Part shown: positions 19,692-29,915 of the stretch, in pieces | How positions within the stretch are numbered: the first letter of the stretch is position 1 | Layout of the letters: each line of letters starts with the position of its first letter | Assembly: GCA_002172485.2 (NCBI GenBank) | Contig: NHFP02000010.1 | Location: forward strand, 89,208 to 153,207 | Length of the DNA stretch: 64,000 nt | Direction of reading: 5' to 3' | Source: Crocinitomicaceae bacterium TMED114 | Lineage (GTDB): Bacteria > Bacteroidota > Bacteroidia > Flavobacteriales_D > Sanyastnellaceae | Notes under the pieces: model-generated | The model's input: only the letters and a program-made list of their open reading frames with translations | Database searches by the model: none | What the model was told of the DNA's origin: nothing | Translations under genes and position numbers: made by a program

Positions 19692-20330
19692 TCAAGGCTG
19701 CAATCGGGCCACTTTCCAATCCCCAGCTTCGCGGGTGAACCGAAAACGGTCGTGCAAACGGCCAGGACGTCCCTGCCAGAATTCAACCTCGCTGGCGATG
19801 AGGCGGTATCCGCCCCAGTGCGGTGGACGGGGAACGTCTCCCGGAAACCGGGCCTCCATGTTCTGCCGCGCCTGCTCCAACGCAGCGCGGTCCTCAACAG
19901 CTGTGCTCTGCTCCGACGCCCATGCACCGATGCGGCTGGCGCGGGGGCGGGACTCGAAGTAGCGGTCGGACTCGGCGGGCGACAACGGTTCCACCTGACC
20001 ACGGACCCGGAGCTGCCGCTCCAGTTCTCGCCAGAAAAATGTGACGGCCGCATGCGGATGGGCCGTCAATTGACGTCCCTTTTCACTGCGATAATTCGTG
20101 TAAAAGGACAAAGAGGGCACCCCGTCGTCCCAAGTCAGGTCGCGCAACAACACGATTCGGGCATCCGGATGTCCATCCTCACCGATGGACGACAAGGTCA
20201 TGGCATTGTAATCCTCTGGATCGGCCTGACGCGCCGCTTCCAGCCAGTTTTGAAGCCACGCTTCTGGGTGCGCCGGAGCTTGGTCCAACATCCCTTTCGC
20301 ATAATCCTTGCGGTCTTCGTAATCGCCCAT
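19692..20330 (-). CDS. pdxH: Pyridoxamine 5'-phosphate oxidase
   Basis: 212 residues, the usual length. FMN- and PLP-site motifs are present: the N-terminal DPEDYNAMTLSSIG, RIVLLRD, FYTNYRSEKGRQL, FFWRELERQ(L)R and the C-terminal EFWQGRPGRLHDR. It oxidises pyridoxine and pyridoxamine phosphates to PLP. It lies 17 bp downstream of the dioxygenase-methyltransferase fusion on the same strand, so the two are probably co-transcribed. Convergent with the rRNA methyltransferase. Confidence 0.95.
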   Translation of the reverse strand: MGDYEDRKDYAKGMLDQAPAHPEAWLQNWLEAARQADPEDYNAMTLSSIGEDGHPDARIVLLRDLTWDDGVPSLSFYTNYRSEKGRQLTAHPHAAVTFFWRELERQLRVRGQVEPLSPAESDRYFESRPRASRIGAWASEQSTAVEDRAALEQARQNMEARFPGDVPRPPHWGGYRLIASEVEFWQGRPGRLHDRFRFTREAGDWKVARLQP

Positions 20331-20347: not shown

Positions 20348-21757
20348 TTACCGGCTCAGGTTCCCCACTTCTTCAGGCTTTTCGCACACCAGGAGCAGAT
20401 TGCCCTGCGTCGCGCCCTCTTCCAGCAGCTCACCTGAGTTCTCGACATAACCAATCCGGTGCACTTGGACCACCTTCAATCCGCACGACTCGACCAAGGC
20501 CGTCATGCGCTCCTCGGTGCAATAATGGAGGAACGTCACCGTCTCACCGCCATGGCGCTTGTAAAACAAGTCCCCGCGCTCGTACCCCTCCGATTCCAGG
20601 CCCAGGTGGTCAAACACACGCGTGGCCTCAGGCCCCCACTCGTAGGGATTCTCGAGATTGAAGACATCGAAATAGAATCGGCCGCCGGGCTTCAGAATGC
20701 GACACATCTTTTCCAAGCTTTTCCTGCGGTCTGCCTCACTCGGAATGTGGCCAAACGCATAGAGGAATGTCGCAGCGTCGTACGCGCCCGATTCCATGTG
20801 GATGTCGTTCCAATGGCCGATGCGGCCGACGATCCCACGCTCTTTCGCCTTCGTCAACATGGACGCACTGATGTCCACGCCTTCCATGGCGTAGTCCAAT
20901 CCACTGGCATCGCGAATGTCCACGGCACGGCGTCCAGTACCGCAGGCCACATGCACCACCTGCTCAACCCCCTGTTTCGCGAGGTCTTCGGCGATCACAG
21001 CATTGATGGCTCCGGTGTAGGCCCTTCGCTTGTCGTTCCCATCATCGAGGTGGTCGTAGATGTCGGCCTGCTCTGAGTAATACGCAGAAATGCTGCGCAG
21101 GATGTCGTCCGGCGAGGGCTTGGGAATCAATGGATAAATACGGTGGGTCCGGTGCCCGGCCACCTCTGAAATCGGGATGAAGGTGAAGGCGTCTTTTTCC
21201 AGCCGACGGAAACCGAATTCATCTTGGTTGAACGAGGCCGTGGTGGCGTGTTCGTTCAGTTCTCCGAGCCATTCTTTCTCCGCATCAAACAACACCATGC
21301 CATCCAAGGTGTCCAGCGCAGGGGCGTAGAAATGGACCGTTACGAGCGGTTTGTCCGGGCTTGGATTGACAATCTTGTGAATGGTGCCATCCGGTTCCGG
21401 AAGCACACCGCCGGCACTGACCCGCAAAGCCAGACCCTCCCGAAGTTCCCTCCGCTCCGCATCATAGGTGTACTCGACATTTTCAACCTCGCCCTCGAGG
21501 CACAGAACGTAACCCCAGAACCCCTCGTGATGGTGGATGGCACTCTCCACGCCGGGTGGCCAGTGCAACACCACCACTTCGAAAGGATCGAGCAACAAGA
21601 TGTTGCGCGCATAATTGTCCGTCATGCCCTCGATGGAGGGAATGCACACCCTGAGGTCCAATTCACCGGGATCAATGCTGCGGACCAAATTCCCCATCCA
21701 TTCAAAGTCAAAGCCTTCTGGCGTTGTCTTTCGGATGGTCTCAATCAGCGCTTGCAT
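20348..21757 (-). CDS. Cysteine-dioxygenase-like cupin fused to a SAM-dependent methyltransferase
   Basis: 469 residues from ATG 21757, chosen because a TATCTTCG element lies just upstream. Residues ~1-180 form a thiol-dioxygenase cupin: an iron-site IHHHEGFWGYVLCLEG near residue 72 and a distal His in GTIHKI near 128. Five residues after the second ligand His is Gly, as in bacterial cysteine dioxygenases that lack the Cys-Tyr crosslink. Residues ~235-460 form a class I methyltransferase (AYYSEQADIYD, motif I VVHVACGTGRRAVD, post-I EGVDIS, FYFDVFNLENPYEW). One chain could oxidise a thiol to a sulfinate and methylate the same or a related product. Substrate unknown; pdxH follows directly. Confidence 0.8.
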   Translation of the reverse strand: MQALIETIRKTTPEGFDFEWMGNLVRSIDPGELDLRVCIPSIEGMTDNYARNILLLDPFEVVVLHWPPGVESAIHHHEGFWGYVLCLEGEVENVEYTYDAERRELREGLALRVSAGGVLPEPDGTIHKIVNPSPDKPLVTVHFYAPALDTLDGMVLFDAEKEWLGELNEHATTASFNQDEFGFRRLEKDAFTFIPISEVAGHRTHRIYPLIPKPSPDDILRSISAYYSEQADIYDHLDDGNDKRRAYTGAINAVIAEDLAKQGVEQVVHVACGTGRRAVDIRDASGLDYAMEGVDISASMLTKAKERGIVGRIGHWNDIHMESGAYDAATFLYAFGHIPSEADRRKSLEKMCRILKPGGRFYFDVFNLENPYEWGPEATRVFDHLGLESEGYERGDLFYKRHGGETVTFLHYCTEERMTALVESCGLKVVQVHRIGYVENSGELLEEGATQGNLLLVCEKPEEVGNLSR

Positions 21758-21893: not shown

Positions 21894-22112
21894 ATGTCCA
21901 CCCGACGCATTGTGAGCTATGAAAAGCTCGACCAGTCCATTCGCAAATTGATCAAGTCCGATTACCCGGACGGATTTGAAGGACGCACCTTCAATCTTCG
22001 CCTGCCCACGAGCAAGGACGTCTTCAAGATGATCCGATTCGAAGCTGAAGGCATTCAATACATGATCAAACTCGGTCCCGCCATTGAAGGTGTGGATTAC
22101 GCGGTCGATTGA
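21894..22112 (+). CDS. Small conserved-looking protein of unknown function
   Basis: 72 residues from ATG 21894 (MSTRRIVSYEKLDQSIRKL). The sequence is a plausible small alpha/beta protein with charged helices and an aromatic C-terminal half (MIRFEAEGIQYMIKLG); there is no signal peptide or membrane segment. It is a compact gene between divergent and co-directional neighbours and is followed by a terminator, both supporting a real gene. I do not recognise the family. Confidence 0.6.
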   Translation: MSTRRIVSYEKLDQSIRKLIKSDYPDGFEGRTFNLRLPTSKDVFKMIRFEAEGIQYMIKLGPAIEGVDYAVD

Positions 22113-22183: not shown

Positions 22184-23515
22184 ATGCGCCTCCTTTCCGC
22201 CCTTCTGCTCCTCTGCCACCCCTGCGTTCTGCTCGGCCAAGCAGCCTGTCAACCCATGGTCGGACATGTGGGGCTGCGCGATGCCCGGATTTGGATGCAA
22301 GCCACCCAGGAAGGACACGTGCTCCTCGAATGCTGGGCAGACAGCTTGGACGCCCCATCCGCAGCCGATCTTCATTCCGCGAGCGGAGAGGTCTTGGCCC
22401 TCAACGCTTGGACCCACACCTTCGTTGTGGGCGGACTCGAGCCCGGCACAGACTATCGGTTCCGCATCACGCTCAATGGGGAGGAAGTCTCGGAAGGTCT
22501 GACCCCCGACCGCATGGCTTTCCGCACCCAACCCTTGTGGGATTACAGATTTGACCCGCCGGACTTCACCGTGGCTTTGGGCTCTTGCTCTTTCATCAAT
22601 GAGCCGGCATACGACCGGCCCGGCAAGGGCTATGGAGGTGGCTATTCCATTTTCGAAACCATCGCCGAATCCAATCCAGACCTCATGCTCTGGCTGGGGG
22701 ACAACGTGTATTTCCGTGAGGTCGACTGGGGCAGCGAAAGCGGCATGCAGCATCGGTACAGCCATTTGCGCCGCCTGCCGGAGCTTCAACCGCTCCTCGG
22801 CGCATGTCCCCACTACGCCATCTGGGATGACCACGACTTCGGGCCCAACAATGCGGACGGAAGTTGGATACACAAGGACTGGGCCAAGTCCACATTCGAG
22901 TCCTTCTGGCCCAACCCCTCCTGCGGCCTCCCCGACCGCGATGGCCAAGGCATCACGAGTGCATTTCGGTTCCACGATGTCGACTTCTTCCTCATGGACA
23001 ACCGGACCTTCCGACTGAATCCCGACAATCTGACCCGGACGCCCCGCATGTTGGGTGAGGCTCAAATCGATTGGCTCATCGCCGCACTCCAATACAGCAA
23101 AGCTCCATTCAAAGTGGTCGCCACCGGTGGACAGGTGGTGAGCGACTATGCGGCCTATGAAAACTTCGCCATGTTCGAAGCGGAACGGGAGATGCTACTT
23201 GCAAGGATTCGAGACGAGGACATCCACGGGGTGGTGTTTCTGACTGGGGATCGGCACAGCTCCGAATTGAGTGCCCTCGAATTGAAGTCCGGGCAAACCG
23301 TCCTCGACTTCACCTGCAGCGCACTCACGAGCAGCACCTACGACCACAGTCAAGAACCCAACCACAACCGCTTGGAAGGCACGAGTGTAGGCGTTCGGAA
23401 CTACGGAACAATGACGCTGACCGGCCCTCGCAAAGAGCGCGTAATGACCTTCCGCACATTCGATGCAGAAGGCGAACTTCTCTGGGAACGCAGTTTTGCT
23501 GCCGCCGACCTCTGA
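22184..23515 (+). CDS. phoD: PhoD-like alkaline phosphatase/phosphodiesterase, secreted
   Basis: 443 residues with an N-terminal signal peptide (LLSALLLLCHPCVLLGQ). A fibronectin-like N-terminal domain (about 25-115, ending in GLEPGTDYRFRI) precedes the PhoD metallophosphatase domain. Metal-site motifs include ALGSCSF, LMLWLGDNVY, YAIWDDHDFGPNNAD, the MDNRTFR segment and the late VFLTGDRHSSEL. PhoD enzymes release phosphate from mono- and diesters outside the cell. No Pho-box or phosphate transporter is visible nearby. It is convergent with the T9SS gene with no gap (stop to stop). Confidence 0.88.
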   Translation: MRLLSALLLLCHPCVLLGQAACQPMVGHVGLRDARIWMQATQEGHVLLECWADSLDAPSAADLHSASGEVLALNAWTHTFVVGGLEPGTDYRFRITLNGEEVSEGLTPDRMAFRTQPLWDYRFDPPDFTVALGSCSFINEPAYDRPGKGYGGGYSIFETIAESNPDLMLWLGDNVYFREVDWGSESGMQHRYSHLRRLPELQPLLGACPHYAIWDDHDFGPNNADGSWIHKDWAKSTFESFWPNPSCGLPDRDGQGITSAFRFHDVDFFLMDNRTFRLNPDNLTRTPRMLGEAQIDWLIAALQYSKAPFKVVATGGQVVSDYAAYENFAMFEAEREMLLARIRDEDIHGVVFLTGDRHSSELSALELKSGQTVLDFTCSALTSSTYDHSQEPNHNRLEGTSVGVRNYGTMTLTGPRKERVMTFRTFDAEGELLWERSFAAADL

Positions 23516-25699
23516 TCAGTCCTGCAACACCAACCGCAAGCTGCTGCTTGCGCCCGTGTTCGAAGCTACCCGCACCGTGTAGATTCCCGCGGGGTGCTGG
23601 GACAGGCTCCAAGTGATGCGGGTGCCCTCCATGGGCGTGGCATCGACGATTCGGCCCATGGGATCCTGCAAGAACAGCATACCACTGAAAGGAAGGTCAA
23701 ACTGCAAGGTCACCTGATCTTGTGCCGGGTTGGGCATGATCTTGAATGGGGAGGTCAATCGCTCCTCAATGCCCACAGGGATGGACACCACAACTGTGGT
23801 GCTGCATCCATCGTCTCCCGTGACCATCAAGGTCCATTCCCCTGAAGCCAGGTCGTCCGGATCCTCTGAACTCGTGCTGCCCGAAGGACCGTTCCATTCG
23901 ATGTCATAAGGTTCCACCCCTCCAGTGATGGTCACCTCTGCCCCACCATTCTCCTCCCCTGAATTCGACCCTTCAATGCTGTCCAAAGTGACCACAATGC
24001 CCTCAGGGTCCACGATGGACACGCTCGTGGTGTCGGAGCAGAGCGCACCGCTGGGCATCAACACCATGGCTTCTACAAAGTAATCGCCTGCGGGCAGGCC
24101 CAAGACATTCCCACTCACGTCACCGAGGTTGACGCCGTTGAGGATGTACTCGGTGGGCTCGACGTTATCCGCCACAAACACCGAAACATTGCCGTCCGAG
24201 CCTCCTGCGCAATCGGGCGAGGACGCGACAGCAAACAAGGCCACCTCAGGAGCCGGCTCCACCACAAAGGACTGGACTGCGCTGCACGCCGTGTCGCCAT
24301 CAAGTACCTCGAGCAGGTAGACGCCAGGATGCAGGGCACTGTAAGAAGCGCCTGTCCATGATCCCGTCACCGTGTCCACCGGTCCAAACAGCGTGTAAGT
24401 GACGGAATCGGTCAGGGCCGAATCCACGGTGAACATGGCTTCGCCATCGCCAACCAGAGGGCAGGATTCCATGACGAGCGAATCCAGTGTGAGAACGAGG
24501 TCGCAATACGTGCAGCTTCCGTCTTCTTGCGTCGCTTGGGGATTGAAGTTGGATGCATTGGCATCGGTGCACCCCAAGCAAGACGTGTACTCGCAATTGT
24601 TGGCGTCCAACACCGCCGTCGCATCATAATTGCACGCCTCGGGCTCCAGACAGCCGGCACAAGAAGTGTATTCGCAAAGGCCACTTTCGATTGTGGCTTC
24701 AGGATTGAAATTGCAGGCTCCGACATCGGTACATCCGTAGCAGGTGAAGTCGCAAAAAGTCAGGTCGTTGATCACGGCGGTGCTGTCGTAGTTGCAGGCC
24801 GAAACCAATCCACATCCTGCGCAGGTCAAGTACTCACAGGAGCCGTCATCGAAGGTTCCAAAGGGGTTGTAATTGCAAGCCCCGACATCCAGACAGGCCC
24901 CGACCTCCACACCGTCGCAGATGAGCACGAAGTCAAACCCGCCGACAGCCGGCGTCACGGCGTTGGAGCCGCTGACGTGCAGAAAGTACTCCACTCCTTC
25001 CTCACTGTCCCATTCTATAGCAGATGCCAGAAAATTCTCGTTGCAGGGTTCGGCAAAGAAGTCCACTTCATCCTGATCGTCATTTCCTGCCACGCAATCC
25101 AAATTGTCGCAGTCGCCCTCATACACGCTGAGATAGGTGTCGTACTCCGTCTCCTCGAAACACATGGTCGCTCGAAGTGTATCTCCAGTCCCCATGATGG
25201 TGTACCACAGGCCGCCATGGAAATAACCTCCAACGTTGTATTGGTCGCAAAAGGCAGACTCCGTGGTGTCTGCGCACTCTGTGGTGGCGGTCACCAATTG
25301 TCCGCAACCAATGGGTTCTGCCAAGCCGCATTCATCATTGTCGACAGGAAGGCAAAACCCGTTGCAATCGTAGCCATCCTGCGCGTAGTAGCAACTGCCA
25401 TCCTCTTCTGTGTAGACAGGAGCCCAATTGCAGGCCTCAGGATCTGTGCATCCCGGAAATTCAAACGGGTCACATACGCCGTCCATGTCTTCGTCGCAGA
25501 GACAATTTCCGTCGCAGTCGAAGCAAAACATGGGGTATTCACAAGTGCCGTCGTCTTCCGTCGCTTGGGGATCATAGTTGCACGCCTCGGAATCGGTGCA
25601 CCCCGGCACCAGACCATGGGGAGTCATTGAAACTGCACCCCAAGAGATGGCGGGGAGGGTCGTACTGGCCAAAAAGGAAAGCAGCAGAATGGCGCGCAT
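23516..25699 (-). CDS. T9SS cargo protein with seven CNY-type Cys-rich repeats
   Basis: 727 residues from ATG 25699 (signal peptide ILLLSFLASTTLPAIS). It contains seven copies of a ~35-residue Cys-rich unit of the form GCTDxxACNYxPxATxDDGSCxY, two before and five after a PPC-like beta-sandwich region (about 110-270; LRATMCFEETEYDTYLSVYEG). Ig/PKD-like beta domains and a SprB-type repeat (GGVEPYDIEWNGP) follow, and a type-A sorting tail begins FKIMPNPAQDQV. It should be exported by T9SS and anchored to the cell surface. The role may be adhesion or structural; no enzyme domain is seen. A TATCTTTTAG element lies 16 nt upstream. Confidence 0.82.
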   Translation of the reverse strand: MRAILLLSFLASTTLPAISWGAVSMTPHGLVPGCTDSEACNYDPQATEDDGTCEYPMFCFDCDGNCLCDEDMDGVCDPFEFPGCTDPEACNWAPVYTEEDGSCYYAQDGYDCNGFCLPVDNDECGLAEPIGCGQLVTATTECADTTESAFCDQYNVGGYFHGGLWYTIMGTGDTLRATMCFEETEYDTYLSVYEGDCDNLDCVAGNDDQDEVDFFAEPCNENFLASAIEWDSEEGVEYFLHVSGSNAVTPAVGGFDFVLICDGVEVGACLDVGACNYNPFGTFDDGSCEYLTCAGCGLVSACNYDSTAVINDLTFCDFTCYGCTDVGACNFNPEATIESGLCEYTSCAGCLEPEACNYDATAVLDANNCEYTSCLGCTDANASNFNPQATQEDGSCTYCDLVLTLDSLVMESCPLVGDGEAMFTVDSALTDSVTYTLFGPVDTVTGSWTGASYSALHPGVYLLEVLDGDTACSAVQSFVVEPAPEVALFAVASSPDCAGGSDGNVSVFVADNVEPTEYILNGVNLGDVSGNVLGLPAGDYFVEAMVLMPSGALCSDTTSVSIVDPEGIVVTLDSIEGSNSGEENGGAEVTITGGVEPYDIEWNGPSGSTSSEDPDDLASGEWTLMVTGDDGCSTTVVVSIPVGIEERLTSPFKIMPNPAQDQVTLQFDLPFSGMLFLQDPMGRIVDATPMEGTRITWSLSQHPAGIYTVRVASNTGASSSLRLVLQD

Positions 25700-25715
25700 G
25701 GTTGTCGATTTCTCC

Positions 25716-25725
25716 CTAAAAGATA
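25716..25725 (-). promoter_or_regulatory. -7-like element TATCTTTTAG upstream of the 727-residue T9SS gene
   Basis: It lies between the terminator of the upstream T9SS gene and the ATG at 25699, suggesting separate transcription. Confidence 0.4.
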
Positions 25726-25744
25726 CCTCGAAAACGCTGGGCTT

Positions 25745-25781
25745 GAAAGAAGAAACGCCACCCCTTTCGGGATGGCGTTTC
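25745..25781 (-). terminator. Terminator after the 1369-residue T9SS gene
   Basis: On the minus strand, GAAACGCCA (read from 25781) and TGGCGTTTC (to 25752) form a perfect 9-bp stem with an inner C/G-rich extension, followed by TTCTTTC. Confidence 0.75.
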
Positions 25782-25805
25782 CAAATCGCTTGCTGTTTCG
25801 GAGGA

Positions 25806-28800
25806 TCAGTGGCGCACAACCAGACGCTGGGTGGCGTGGCTGTTGCCAGCTGTCAGACGGACTTGGTACACGCCGTCGGACAGGCTGCCGAAGTCCATTT
25901 GGAGCTGGCCTGCGATCGTCATGCCTTCCTGTCGGAAGACGCGGCGACCTGCACCATCAAATACCTCGAGAATGGCGCCCTCCACAAACTGGTTGAGTTC
26001 CAAGGTCAGCTGACCGCTCGTGGGGTTCGGCATGAATGCAATGCCGAGGTCTCCCACCACTTCGGTCAGTCCGACCGTGGTCAAGGTCACCACTTCGTCT
26101 TCTTCACAGCCGTTGTCGTCGGTCACCGTCAAAGTATAAGTACCGTCGGTCAGGCCATCGATGTCCTCGGTGTCATACGGGCCACCAGGACCTTCCCAGT
26201 TATAGCTGTAGTCTCCAGTACCTCCGGAGACGCTGACGGAAATTTCTCCGTTCGGAGCATCGTTCGGATCCACTTGGGAATCCACTGTGATGACGATGGC
26301 GTCCGGCTCTTCCACTTCAGCGGAAATGTTCGCTACGCAGCCATTCGCGTCGGTCGCGAACACCGTGTACGGGCCGGCGTCGAGACCGGTGAAGTTTCCG
26401 TCGATGTTGCTCTCCTCACCCAATTCGAAGGTAATGACGCCCGTGCCACCTTCGCTCGTGACGAGAATGGAGCCCGTGTCATCGCCGTTGCAATCCACAT
26501 CCGAAGCGAATGCAAACAACTGGAGGGCCGCAGCCTCATCCACGTAGACCTCCAGGGTGTCCGTACACATCAGGGAGTCCATGGCCACCACCATGTAGGA
26601 GCCTCCTCCCAACTGATCAAAGACCGAGCTGCTCTGGAAAGGTTCATCCTCGAAGGCGTAGTTCACCGTTCCGAAGCCTCCAGTCGTGCCTTCGATGGTG
26701 ATGCTGCCATTCATGTCACCAGCACAGGTCACATCCACCACCGCCACCGCAGTATCGATGGCCAGCATGCAGTACTCGCAGGTCGCATCGTCAATGGTCG
26801 CTGTGGGGTCATAATTTGCTGCAGCCTCATCTGTACAGCCCAAGCAGCTGTAGTCACAGAGCTCCAGGTTGTTGTCGGTGGCCGACTCGTCGTAGTTGCA
26901 GGCATTGAGGTCGAGACACCCTTCGATTTCATTTTCGTCACACACACCGTCGCCGTCCGCGTCGTTCAGGCAGTTGCCGTCGCAATCCACATAGGGGTCA
27001 CCGTAGATGTCCACAGGGTACATGCACGTGCCATCGTCGATGGTGGCGTCCATATCGAAGTTGCAGGCCTCCATTTCGGTACAGCCGGCGCAGCTGTCGT
27101 ATTCACAGCTTCCGTCATCCTCAGTGGCATCCGGGTTGTAGTTGCAGGCATTGTCGTAGGTGCAACCATCCACCTCAGCTTCGTCACAGATGCCGTCGCC
27201 ATCGGTGTCGTTCAAGCAATTGCCCAGGCAATCGACGTAGTCGACGCCGTAGATGTCTTCGACGAATTGGCAACTGAGCGGGTCATTGATGGTCACTTCT
27301 GGATCGTAGTTGCAGGCCAACTCATTGAGGCAACCGGCACAGCTCTCAGATTCGCAGGACCCATCATCCAAGGTAGCCAGCGGATTGTAGTTGCAACTCA
27401 CAAGCGACGTGCAACCTTCGATGACCGGCACAATGACTGCGTCGATCACGTGCACCACACCGTTCTCCGCGAGGAGGTCGGCAATGATGATTTCCGCATC
27501 GTTGATGAAAATGCTGTTGCCAGAGAAGGAAATGGTCGCTGTCTCGCCATTGATCATCGGAATGGTCATGCCGTTGGTCAGCATGTCGCTGGTCACACTG
27601 TCTGCCACGACGTGGTAGCTCAGCACGTCAGTGAGCAACAGCGGATCATTGAGCAGGTAGGCCAATTCGGCATCGGACAAAGCGTCCACTGCAGCGTCAG
27701 TCGGAGCAAACACCGTCCAAGCGCCGCCGAAGGTCAATGCACTGTCCAGTTCTGCGGCCTCAATCAGGTCTTCCAACACCGTGTGGACTTCGCTGTCCGC
27801 GATGATGTCGAACACGCTGGCGGCTGGGTACTCACAGCTGCCGTCGTCGTCGGTGGCGGCTCCATCGAAGTTGATGGCCGTCATGTCCGTACATCCGGGG
27901 ACCTCTCCCTCATCACACACCCCGTCGTTGTCCATGTCATTGATGCAGTTTCCGTCGCAATCCACGTAATCCACACTGTATACATCCTCGGGGTAGAGAC
28001 AGTCCTCATCTGGGGCCACACACGCCTCTCCAATGTTAAAGTTCAAGTAGATGTCATTGGCGCCAATGCCGTTCTCGAACACCTGTACGTAGAAATTGCC
28101 TTCGACCTCTCCGTCCGTGGTGAGCTGCGCAATGAGGACCTGGTTGTCAGGGTGATTGGCTGCGATGCCGTTGGCATCACCGTTGAGGGCGAACCAAGTG
28201 CCACCGACGTTGTCGTCGATGACGATGTCACCACCCGCCGCTCCGAAGCCAGGGTCGAAGTTGGTGTACCAGGAGTTGTCGGAGCTCTGTAGAATGCTGA
28301 CTTCCCCTTCTCCAAGCGTGGACTGGGGAGCAGAGGACAGTCCAATCGTGACCCAGCTGTCGTATTCGAGGTTCGGGAACGTTTCAAACAGGGGGGTCTG
28401 AATGCCATTCGACGTCACACCACCCAAAGCATCATGAAAGAAACTCGTACTGGTGGTCACCGCCATGGGGTTGTTCATGTCACCCGATACCGAGCTCACA
28501 AAGTCATCCGGGTTGGCGCACTTCACGTAGTAGCGATACGTGGTCATGCCAGCCAAATCGCCTTCCGTGTGCACCATAACGGTGTCCACAATCAGGCAGT
28601 AGTCAGCCTCGGTCGCCACAGCAATCGGGTCGTAATTACAGGCCACAGGGTCTGAGCAGCCTTCCTCTTCATCGCAGAGGCCATCGTTGTCCTGATCGTT
28701 CAAGCAATTGCCGTCGCAATCGACGTAATCCGCAGCAGGGTAAGTGCATGAACCATCGTCTGCATCCGCCATGTCATTGTAGTTGCACGCCGTGGCATCC

Positions 28801-29915
28801 GTGCAGCCAAATGTCTCTTCCTCGTCACAAATCCCGTTCCCGTTGACATCATTGATGCAGTTGCCGTCGCAGTCCACACCCACTTCAGGGTAAAAACAGG
28901 AGGCATTGTCTTCGATGGTGGCCGTCATGTCGTAGTTGCACGCCGTATCGTCCGTGCACCCCGCGCAGGAAGCGAATTCACAGCTACCATCGTCATCCGT
29001 GGCATTCTCGTTGTAATTGCAGGCACCGCTGTCGGTACAACCTGCGGTTTCCAACTCGTCGCACAGGCCGTCCATGTCGGCGTCATTGATGCAGCTGCCA
29101 TCGCAGTTGAGGTAGGTCTCATCCGGGTAGGTACAAGAACCATCGTCTGCATCGGCCATATCATCGTAGTTGCACGCGGCAATGTCGGTACAGCCTTCTG
29201 TCAATTCAGCAGGCCATGTGAACGTGGGGAAGATGTCGTTGTACTCTTCCAGTTCGGGATTGTAAACGCTGTCCACCACCACGGAGTTGGTGCCGACGCC
29301 GTTGATGAAGATCTGGGTGTACAAAGACACTTCGAGGTCGCCGTCCGTTGTGAACTGTCCTGCGAGCACCTTCAAATCAGGTCCCGCAATGCCATTCTCA
29401 TCTCCGTTCAAGGCGTACCAAGCACCACCCACAGCATCGTCAATCACGATGCTGCCACCAGGCAGTCCAATACCGGAATCGAAGTTGGTGGTCCAGGGGT
29501 TGATGCCCGATTGCACAGTGGACACAGCCGCCTCACCGGCGCCGGCATTCGGCGCCTGGGACAATCCAATGGTGACCCAGCTGTCAAACTCCAAGTCAGG
29601 ATATACACCGAACAACAAGGATTGGATGCCATTCGGCGTAGACCCTCCCAGCAAGGAATGGTGGAATGACGTGGTCGTCGTCACCGAGGTTGGGTTGTTT
29701 TCGTCACCCGCAATGGCGCTGAGGAAATCGTCCTCATTTTCCATCGTGATGAACACCTGGTAACAGGAATAGCCAGACAGATCCGTCTCGGTTCCGTCCA
29801 AAGCAACGAGGGTTCCAATGTCTTCAGAGACAACTTCTACCTCCACCCCGTATGATTGGGCGAAAAGCAGAGTGGGCATTAGGCACATGGCCAGGAGTAG
29901 CTGGTACAGCTTCAT
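25806..29915 (-). CDS. Giant T9SS cargo protein: two novel modules, 12 CNY repeats, fasciclin domain, SprB repeats
   Basis: 1369 residues with a signal peptide (LLLAMCLMPTLLFAQ). Order: an undescribed ~210-residue module (about 22-235; core DLEFDSWVTIGL and GGAWYALNGDENG), five CNY repeats alternating with Ca-binding-type CDGNCINDxDxDGxCDE units, a second copy of the same module (about 435-628), another CNY repeat, a fasciclin domain (about 695-832; TVFAPTDAAVDAL, NGVVHVIDAV), six more CNY repeats, SprB-type Ig-like repeats (GGTGDYSYNWEGPGG) and a type-A sorting tail (FMPNPTSGQL). Probably a cell-surface adhesin. There is a terminator downstream and a similar gene upstream. Confidence 0.85.
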   Translation of the reverse strand: MKLYQLLLAMCLMPTLLFAQSYGVEVEVVSEDIGTLVALDGTETDLSGYSCYQVFITMENEDDFLSAIAGDENNPTSVTTTTSFHHSLLGGSTPNGIQSLLFGVYPDLEFDSWVTIGLSQAPNAGAGEAAVSTVQSGINPWTTNFDSGIGLPGGSIVIDDAVGGAWYALNGDENGIAGPDLKVLAGQFTTDGDLEVSLYTQIFINGVGTNSVVVDSVYNPELEEYNDIFPTFTWPAELTEGCTDIAACNYDDMADADDGSCTYPDETYLNCDGSCINDADMDGLCDELETAGCTDSGACNYNENATDDDGSCEFASCAGCTDDTACNYDMTATIEDNASCFYPEVGVDCDGNCINDVNGNGICDEEETFGCTDATACNYNDMADADDGSCTYPAADYVDCDGNCLNDQDNDGLCDEEEGCSDPVACNYDPIAVATEADYCLIVDTVMVHTEGDLAGMTTYRYYVKCANPDDFVSSVSGDMNNPMAVTTSTSFFHDALGGVTSNGIQTPLFETFPNLEYDSWVTIGLSSAPQSTLGEGEVSILQSSDNSWYTNFDPGFGAAGGDIVIDDNVGGTWFALNGDANGIAANHPDNQVLIAQLTTDGEVEGNFYVQVFENGIGANDIYLNFNIGEACVAPDEDCLYPEDVYSVDYVDCDGNCINDMDNDGVCDEGEVPGCTDMTAINFDGAATDDDGSCEYPAASVFDIIADSEVHTVLEDLIEAAELDSALTFGGAWTVFAPTDAAVDALSDAELAYLLNDPLLLTDVLSYHVVADSVTSDMLTNGMTIPMINGETATISFSGNSIFINDAEIIIADLLAENGVVHVIDAVIVPVIEGCTSLVSCNYNPLATLDDGSCESESCAGCLNELACNYDPEVTINDPLSCQFVEDIYGVDYVDCLGNCLNDTDGDGICDEAEVDGCTYDNACNYNPDATEDDGSCEYDSCAGCTEMEACNFDMDATIDDGTCMYPVDIYGDPYVDCDGNCLNDADGDGVCDENEIEGCLDLNACNYDESATDNNLELCDYSCLGCTDEAAANYDPTATIDDATCEYCMLAIDTAVAVVDVTCAGDMNGSITIEGTTGGFGTVNYAFEDEPFQSSSVFDQLGGGSYMVVAMDSLMCTDTLEVYVDEAAALQLFAFASDVDCNGDDTGSILVTSEGGTGVITFELGEESNIDGNFTGLDAGPYTVFATDANGCVANISAEVEEPDAIVITVDSQVDPNDAPNGEISVSVSGGTGDYSYNWEGPGGPYDTEDIDGLTDGTYTLTVTDDNGCEEDEVVTLTTVGLTEVVGDLGIAFMPNPTSGQLTLELNQFVEGAILEVFDGAGRRVFRQEGMTIAGQLQMDFGSLSDGVYQVRLTAGNSHATQRLVVRH
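26750..29200 (-). repeat. Array of 12 CNY-type Cys-rich repeats
   Basis: Twelve protein repeats of the type GC(T/L)DxxACNYDxxATxDDGSC are distributed over this span of the 1369-residue gene. The fasciclin domain and one copy of the novel module interrupt the series. DNA identity between units is moderate, so they are old duplications. Confidence 0.8.

Follow-up and report, generated by a model that had tools for sequence, protein, structure and literature searches.

Why should one polypeptide carry both a cysteine dioxygenase (CDO)-like cupin and an S-adenosylmethionine (SAM)-dependent methyltransferase (MT), and could the two halves serve a single pathway? This question was raised by a locus in a 64,000-nucleotide stretch of DNA ("the window") from Crocinitomicaceae bacterium TMED114. 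The gene lies on the minus strand at 20348..21757, stop codon included, as an open frame of 469 amino acids counted from the conserved ATG; an ATG further upstream in the same frame, at 21910, would add a 51-amino-acid extension that is absent from relatives. The N-terminal part, residues 1-204 approximately (21146..21757, minus strand), is an Arg-type CDO cupin that matches Pfam model CDO_I (PF05995; residues 58-151, E=6e-10, 39.3 bits against a cut-off of 23) and, by profile and fold, Bacillus subtilis CDO (3eqe/4qm9). The C-terminal part, residues 205-469 (approximately 205-465; 20351..21145, minus strand), is a class I SAM MT that matches Methyltransf_25 (PF13649; residues 267-359, E=1e-12, above the gathering cut-off), and an AlphaFold2 (AF2) model of this half agrees. 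The original prediction of a dioxygenase cupin joined to a class I MT in one 469-residue chain thus holds, with both Pfam domains above their cut-offs and, as described below, both sites intact.

A frameshift or assembly error at this gene was among the refuting conditions named in the original prediction, which also proposed that the fused architecture be sought across genomes. That search recovered 44 distinct fused orthologues with 38-76% identity in six families of the class (that of the window and five others), and the window gene itself is a single open frame; an assembly join or frameshift as the origin of the fusion is ruled out by these 44 loci. Both halves are under purifying selection, with Ka between 0.02 and 0.37 and Ks much higher and often saturated. 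Because the fusion recurs at 44 distinct loci and its two halves both show Ka values far lower than Ks, its conservation goes beyond chance.

Within the window's family, a strong match to the fusion was present in 39 of 114 genomes, spread over 6 genera; among the 39, one (G070) has the cupin and MT halves on separate contigs. Each fusion genome in this family had a single hit to the CDO Pfam model, and the fusion is therefore the only CDO detected there. A profile of the cupin half, searched against 395 genomes of the class, found the fused orthologues of the five further families as well as stand-alone orthologous cupins in three genomes of family f76 and one of family f60. A set of 395 genomes drawn from across the phylum yielded no further scoring member of the window's fusion family. 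Viral contigs held no relative and plasmids only one generic MT match, which argues against phage or plasmid cargo.

Is the cupin equipped for catalysis? Alignment to rat and B. subtilis CDO gave, in rat numbering, the equivalences Y49=Y58, R51=R60, H75=H86, H77=H88, G82=C93, H127=H140 and T140-H142-Y144=S153-H155-Y157, so that Tyr58, Arg60, His86, His88, His140, His155 and Tyr157 are all kept. The departures from rat CDO are Thr for Ser153 and Gly at the position of the Cys93 crosslink. Conservation was counted over 48 distinct loci, 44 fused and 4 stand-alone. The HHH motif (21527..21535, minus strand), which supplies the first two iron ligands as H75 and H77, is invariant in 48/48 at both ligands, as are the third ligand H127 (21377..21379, minus strand), the crosslink-position Gly (G82) and the Tyr pair (Y49 and Y144). 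In the segment T140-H142-Y144 (21326..21340, minus strand), which corresponds to the Ser-His-Tyr network of CDO with Thr for Ser, the first position is Thr in 44 loci and Ser in 4, the distal His is kept in 47/48 (Asn in the other) and the Tyr in 48/48. The iron site (HHHEGFW), the distal His and the Gly in place of the crosslink Cys had all been read correctly from the single sequence, as both the alignment and the 48-locus conservation confirm; to that list we add the diagnostic R51 (21605..21607, minus strand), aligned with rat Arg60, which binds the carboxylate of the substrate, and predicted to do the same here, which is Arg in 47 of the 48 loci and Lys in one.

R51 bears directly on the substrate. 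Arg-type thiol dioxygenases favor cysteine-like substrates, while the Gln-type enzymes are mercaptopropionate dioxygenases (PMC8050391). The Gln that marks the latter type at the Arg60 position was found in none of the 48 loci, and although the superfamily and iron site are shared with 3-mercaptopropionate dioxygenase (3uss/4tlf), the profile match to that enzyme was E=1e-4 versus 1e-15 for CDO. PF05995 above its cut-off, the three His ligands and the equivalents of Arg60, His155 and Tyr157 together place the cupin among the Arg-type CDOs. An Arg-type site, under the substrate rule above, points to a substrate with an alpha-carboxylate, most simply cysteine. The full chain was modeled by AF2 from 35 homologues with a pLDDT of 92.9 and a pTM of 0.88, and the predicted cupin superimposes on B. 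subtilis CDO 3eqe/4qm9 with TM scores of 0.81-0.85 and rmsd of 2.3-2.4 Å (0.85 and 2.4 Å for the Cys-bound 4qm9). This protein, the Arg-type YubC, has the same cupin fold, three His ligands, substrate Arg and active-site His and Tyr; it differs from the fusion in sharing only ~23% identity and in having no C-terminal MT. The fusion differs also from the rat CDO network in its Thr for Ser. From what is known of the family, the cupin would bind iron, recognize the carboxylate through R51 and yield a sulfinate.

The MT half has the marks of a class I SAM MT: a Rossmann-like fold in the prediction (pLDDT 92.3 and pTM 0.90 for this half alone), the glycines of motif I and an acidic residue, D295, after strand 2. 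Nineteen residues, taken from columns without variation in alignments A1 and A3 (so that their invariance is partly by selection and does not count as an independent statistical test), were all invariant in the 44 fused MTs, which range down to 38% identity. Five belong to the SAM site, namely G273, G275, R276 and R277 in motif I (residues 266-277, ending CGTGRR; 20927..20962, minus strand) and D295, and family knowledge suggests that this half binds SAM. The other fourteen are candidate pocket residues (Y226, Y234, D235, D238, R244, Y247, H337, R344, E373, W374, D396, Y399, H411 and Y412); E373 and W374 open the EWGP motif (residues 373-376; 20630..20641, minus strand), a putative part of the substrate pocket.

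No MT family model was matched above its curated cut-off, so that the MT substrate and acceptor atom can be proposed only tentatively. The glycine/sarcosine N-methyltransferase model NF051855 scored 36 bits against a cut-off of 350, similarity to NmbA (9ri2) was confined to residues 233-386 (phmmer E=7e-4) with no clear full-length likeness, and the ovoA_Cterm model gave weak matches in 3 of 15 MTs and was absent from the match list of the window protein. The nearest structures in a fold search of the PDB, with which the profile search was concordant, include many N-methyltransferases (TylM1, glycine-sarcosine MT, phosphoethanolamine MT, NmbA, CcbJ, MitM and CypM), and the C-methyltransferases PsmD and SeMT are likewise close. 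The SAM-binding core and overall fold are shared with TylM1, glycine-sarcosine N-methyltransferase and NmbA; the fusion MT is distinguished from these by an identity of 14-21% and by its own invariant pocket residues. Since the structural neighbors include many N-methyltransferases, nitrogen may be the methyl acceptor.

Our best guess, to which we give a probability of about 0.4, is a bifunctional enzyme. The cupin would use non-haem iron to oxidize the thiol of cysteine, or of a close alpha-amino-acid thiol, to a sulfinate, and the fused MT would methylate this product, most likely at the amino nitrogen, to give N-methylated cysteine sulfinate or a similar compound. Three points of this scheme are guesses on our part: the sharing of a single metabolite by the two halves, nitrogen as the acceptor, and what becomes of the product. 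As for the chemistry first proposed, thiol oxidation plus methylation to an S- or N-methylated sulfinate or sulfonate, its dioxygenase and MT both stand with intact sites and the Arg-type cupin favors a cysteine-like thiol; its further link to decarboxylation was not supported (see below), and methylation of the dioxygenase product is something we infer.

The placement of the MT in the same pathway as the cupin draws on the fusion itself and on a second, separate one. This second CDO-MT fusion, of 534-551 residues, has the same domain order with a middle region of ~110 residues and was found at two loci (L065:3212-4816, plus strand; L066:7555-9210, plus strand). In the cupin tree it is separate from the window's family and groups with two cupins that stand alone (L108 and L113), and the CDO-MT pairing thus appears to have arisen twice. 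By eye, the copy at L066 has YeeE-like sulfur-transport genes nearby. It is conceivable, though we hold this as a tentative and rather doubtful proposition, that the window's fusion is dedicated to turning cysteine in two steps into an N- or S-methylated sulfinate undescribed from these Bacteroidota, with a domain pairing that evolved twice.

The two halves might instead have independent activities, with the CDO removing cysteine, the MT acting on an unrelated substrate and the fusion only fixing their co-expression. The four orthologous cupins without an MT, from which it seems that the cupin can do without one, speak for this and against a coupling of the MT to the cupin product, as does the tighter constraint on the cupin half than on the MT half in a Ka/Ks comparison within the window's genus. 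In the four stand-alone-cupin genomes (three of them 60-83% complete) no MT orthologue was found, the best match being 6e-14 versus <=1e-111 in true fusions. The stand-alone cupins are interspersed among the fused ones in a cupin tree with only partly resolved branches, and the simplest reading of this pattern, which is not proven, would be that the MT was lost twice. Against it stand the existence of two distinct CDO-MT fusions within a single phylum and the retention of the fusion at 44 loci, which suggest that the halves share a pathway, and we consider independent activities unlikely.

Under a different order of events, the MT would first N-methylate a thiol, either cysteine itself or one that contains cysteine (for instance bacillithiol), and oxidation of the methylated thiol by the cupin would follow. 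Of the 114 genomes in the window's family, 99 have BshC; the fold neighbors of the MT half include NmbA, which N-methylates bacillithiol, and NmbA is widespread in Bacteroidota (PMC12719100). However, BshC is near-universal with or without the fusion and so is uninformative on a bacillithiol link, the similarity to NmbA is weak (E=7e-4), and R51 favors a substrate with its carboxylate free, which is not the case for the cysteine in bacillithiol; we regard methylation before oxidation as improbable.

What of the neighboring gene? The original prediction had placed the fusion upstream of an adjacent pdxH, and pdxH (pyridoxamine 5'-phosphate oxidase; TIGR00558, 241 bits against a cut-off of 180) indeed lies at 19692..20330 on the same minus strand, 17 nt downstream. 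Among the 48 loci, 22 from three families have pdxH behind the cupin gene in the same orientation; they comprise 13/13 of the window's genus, loci from three further genera of its family, and some from f60 and f77. No pdxH was found at loci of the large genus g18 (where <700 bases of downstream sequence are available in a few cases), of g19, or of members of f57, f76, f86 and f101. One pdxH-linked locus has a stand-alone cupin without the MT, which, with the spread of the linkage, indicates that the link is old and that it goes with the cupin and not with the MT. pdxH has a housekeeping role, and its linkage implies no mechanism.

It had been suggested that pdxH supplies PLP to a sulfinate decarboxylase; such a scheme would yield an N-methyltaurine-type product, and a PF00282 decarboxylase is indeed encoded elsewhere in the window's genome. 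Yet 8 of the 39 fusion genomes (some incomplete) gave no PF00282 match, 25 genomes that lack the fusion do have this family, and no such gene was seen beside the fusion at the loci inspected, so that co-occurrence follows no consistent pattern. Classical CDO genes directly beside a PF00282 decarboxylase and a solute-symporter-like gene, likely a hypotaurine route, occur in relatives without the fusion that belong to other genera (L159:5446-7417, plus strand; L160:4600-6545, minus strand). The decarboxylation scheme, for all its pdxH linkage, is the least probable of those considered.

Both domains belong to known families, and their conserved fusion is real and is undescribed in the literature searched, in which (open-licence papers only) no paper describing a CDO-MT fusion was found. 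The ovothiol synthase OvoA likewise pairs a sulfur-oxidizing iron domain with an MT on one chain, although its oxidative domain is from a different family than the CDO cupin. If the bifunctional reading is true, these Bacteroidota have an extra branch of cysteine or organosulfur metabolism; the fusion predicts a methylated sulfinate, and its genes could guide metabolomic searches in largely uncultured lineages.

Apart from pdxH, the neighbors of the fusion are housekeeping-like and differ between genera, with no biosynthetic genes at the fusion loci. The three stand-alone cupins of family f76 (L119, L120 and L121) adjoin a queE-like gene and a 236-amino-acid TPR-like gene rather than pdxH. Two loci (L122 and L124) share a conserved block, read by eye, of rhomboid-like, HAD phosphatase, class IV aminotransferase, YqgE-like, MiaE-like, cupin or fusion, pdxH and glycosyltransferase-like genes. 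In the window, the minus-strand genes at 23516-25819 and 25806-29915 encode very long proteins of secreted type, in which a Cys-rich GCTD...ACNYD unit is repeated and a sorting-like domain forms the C terminus; a PhoD-like phosphatase gene at 22184-23515 adjoins this pair.
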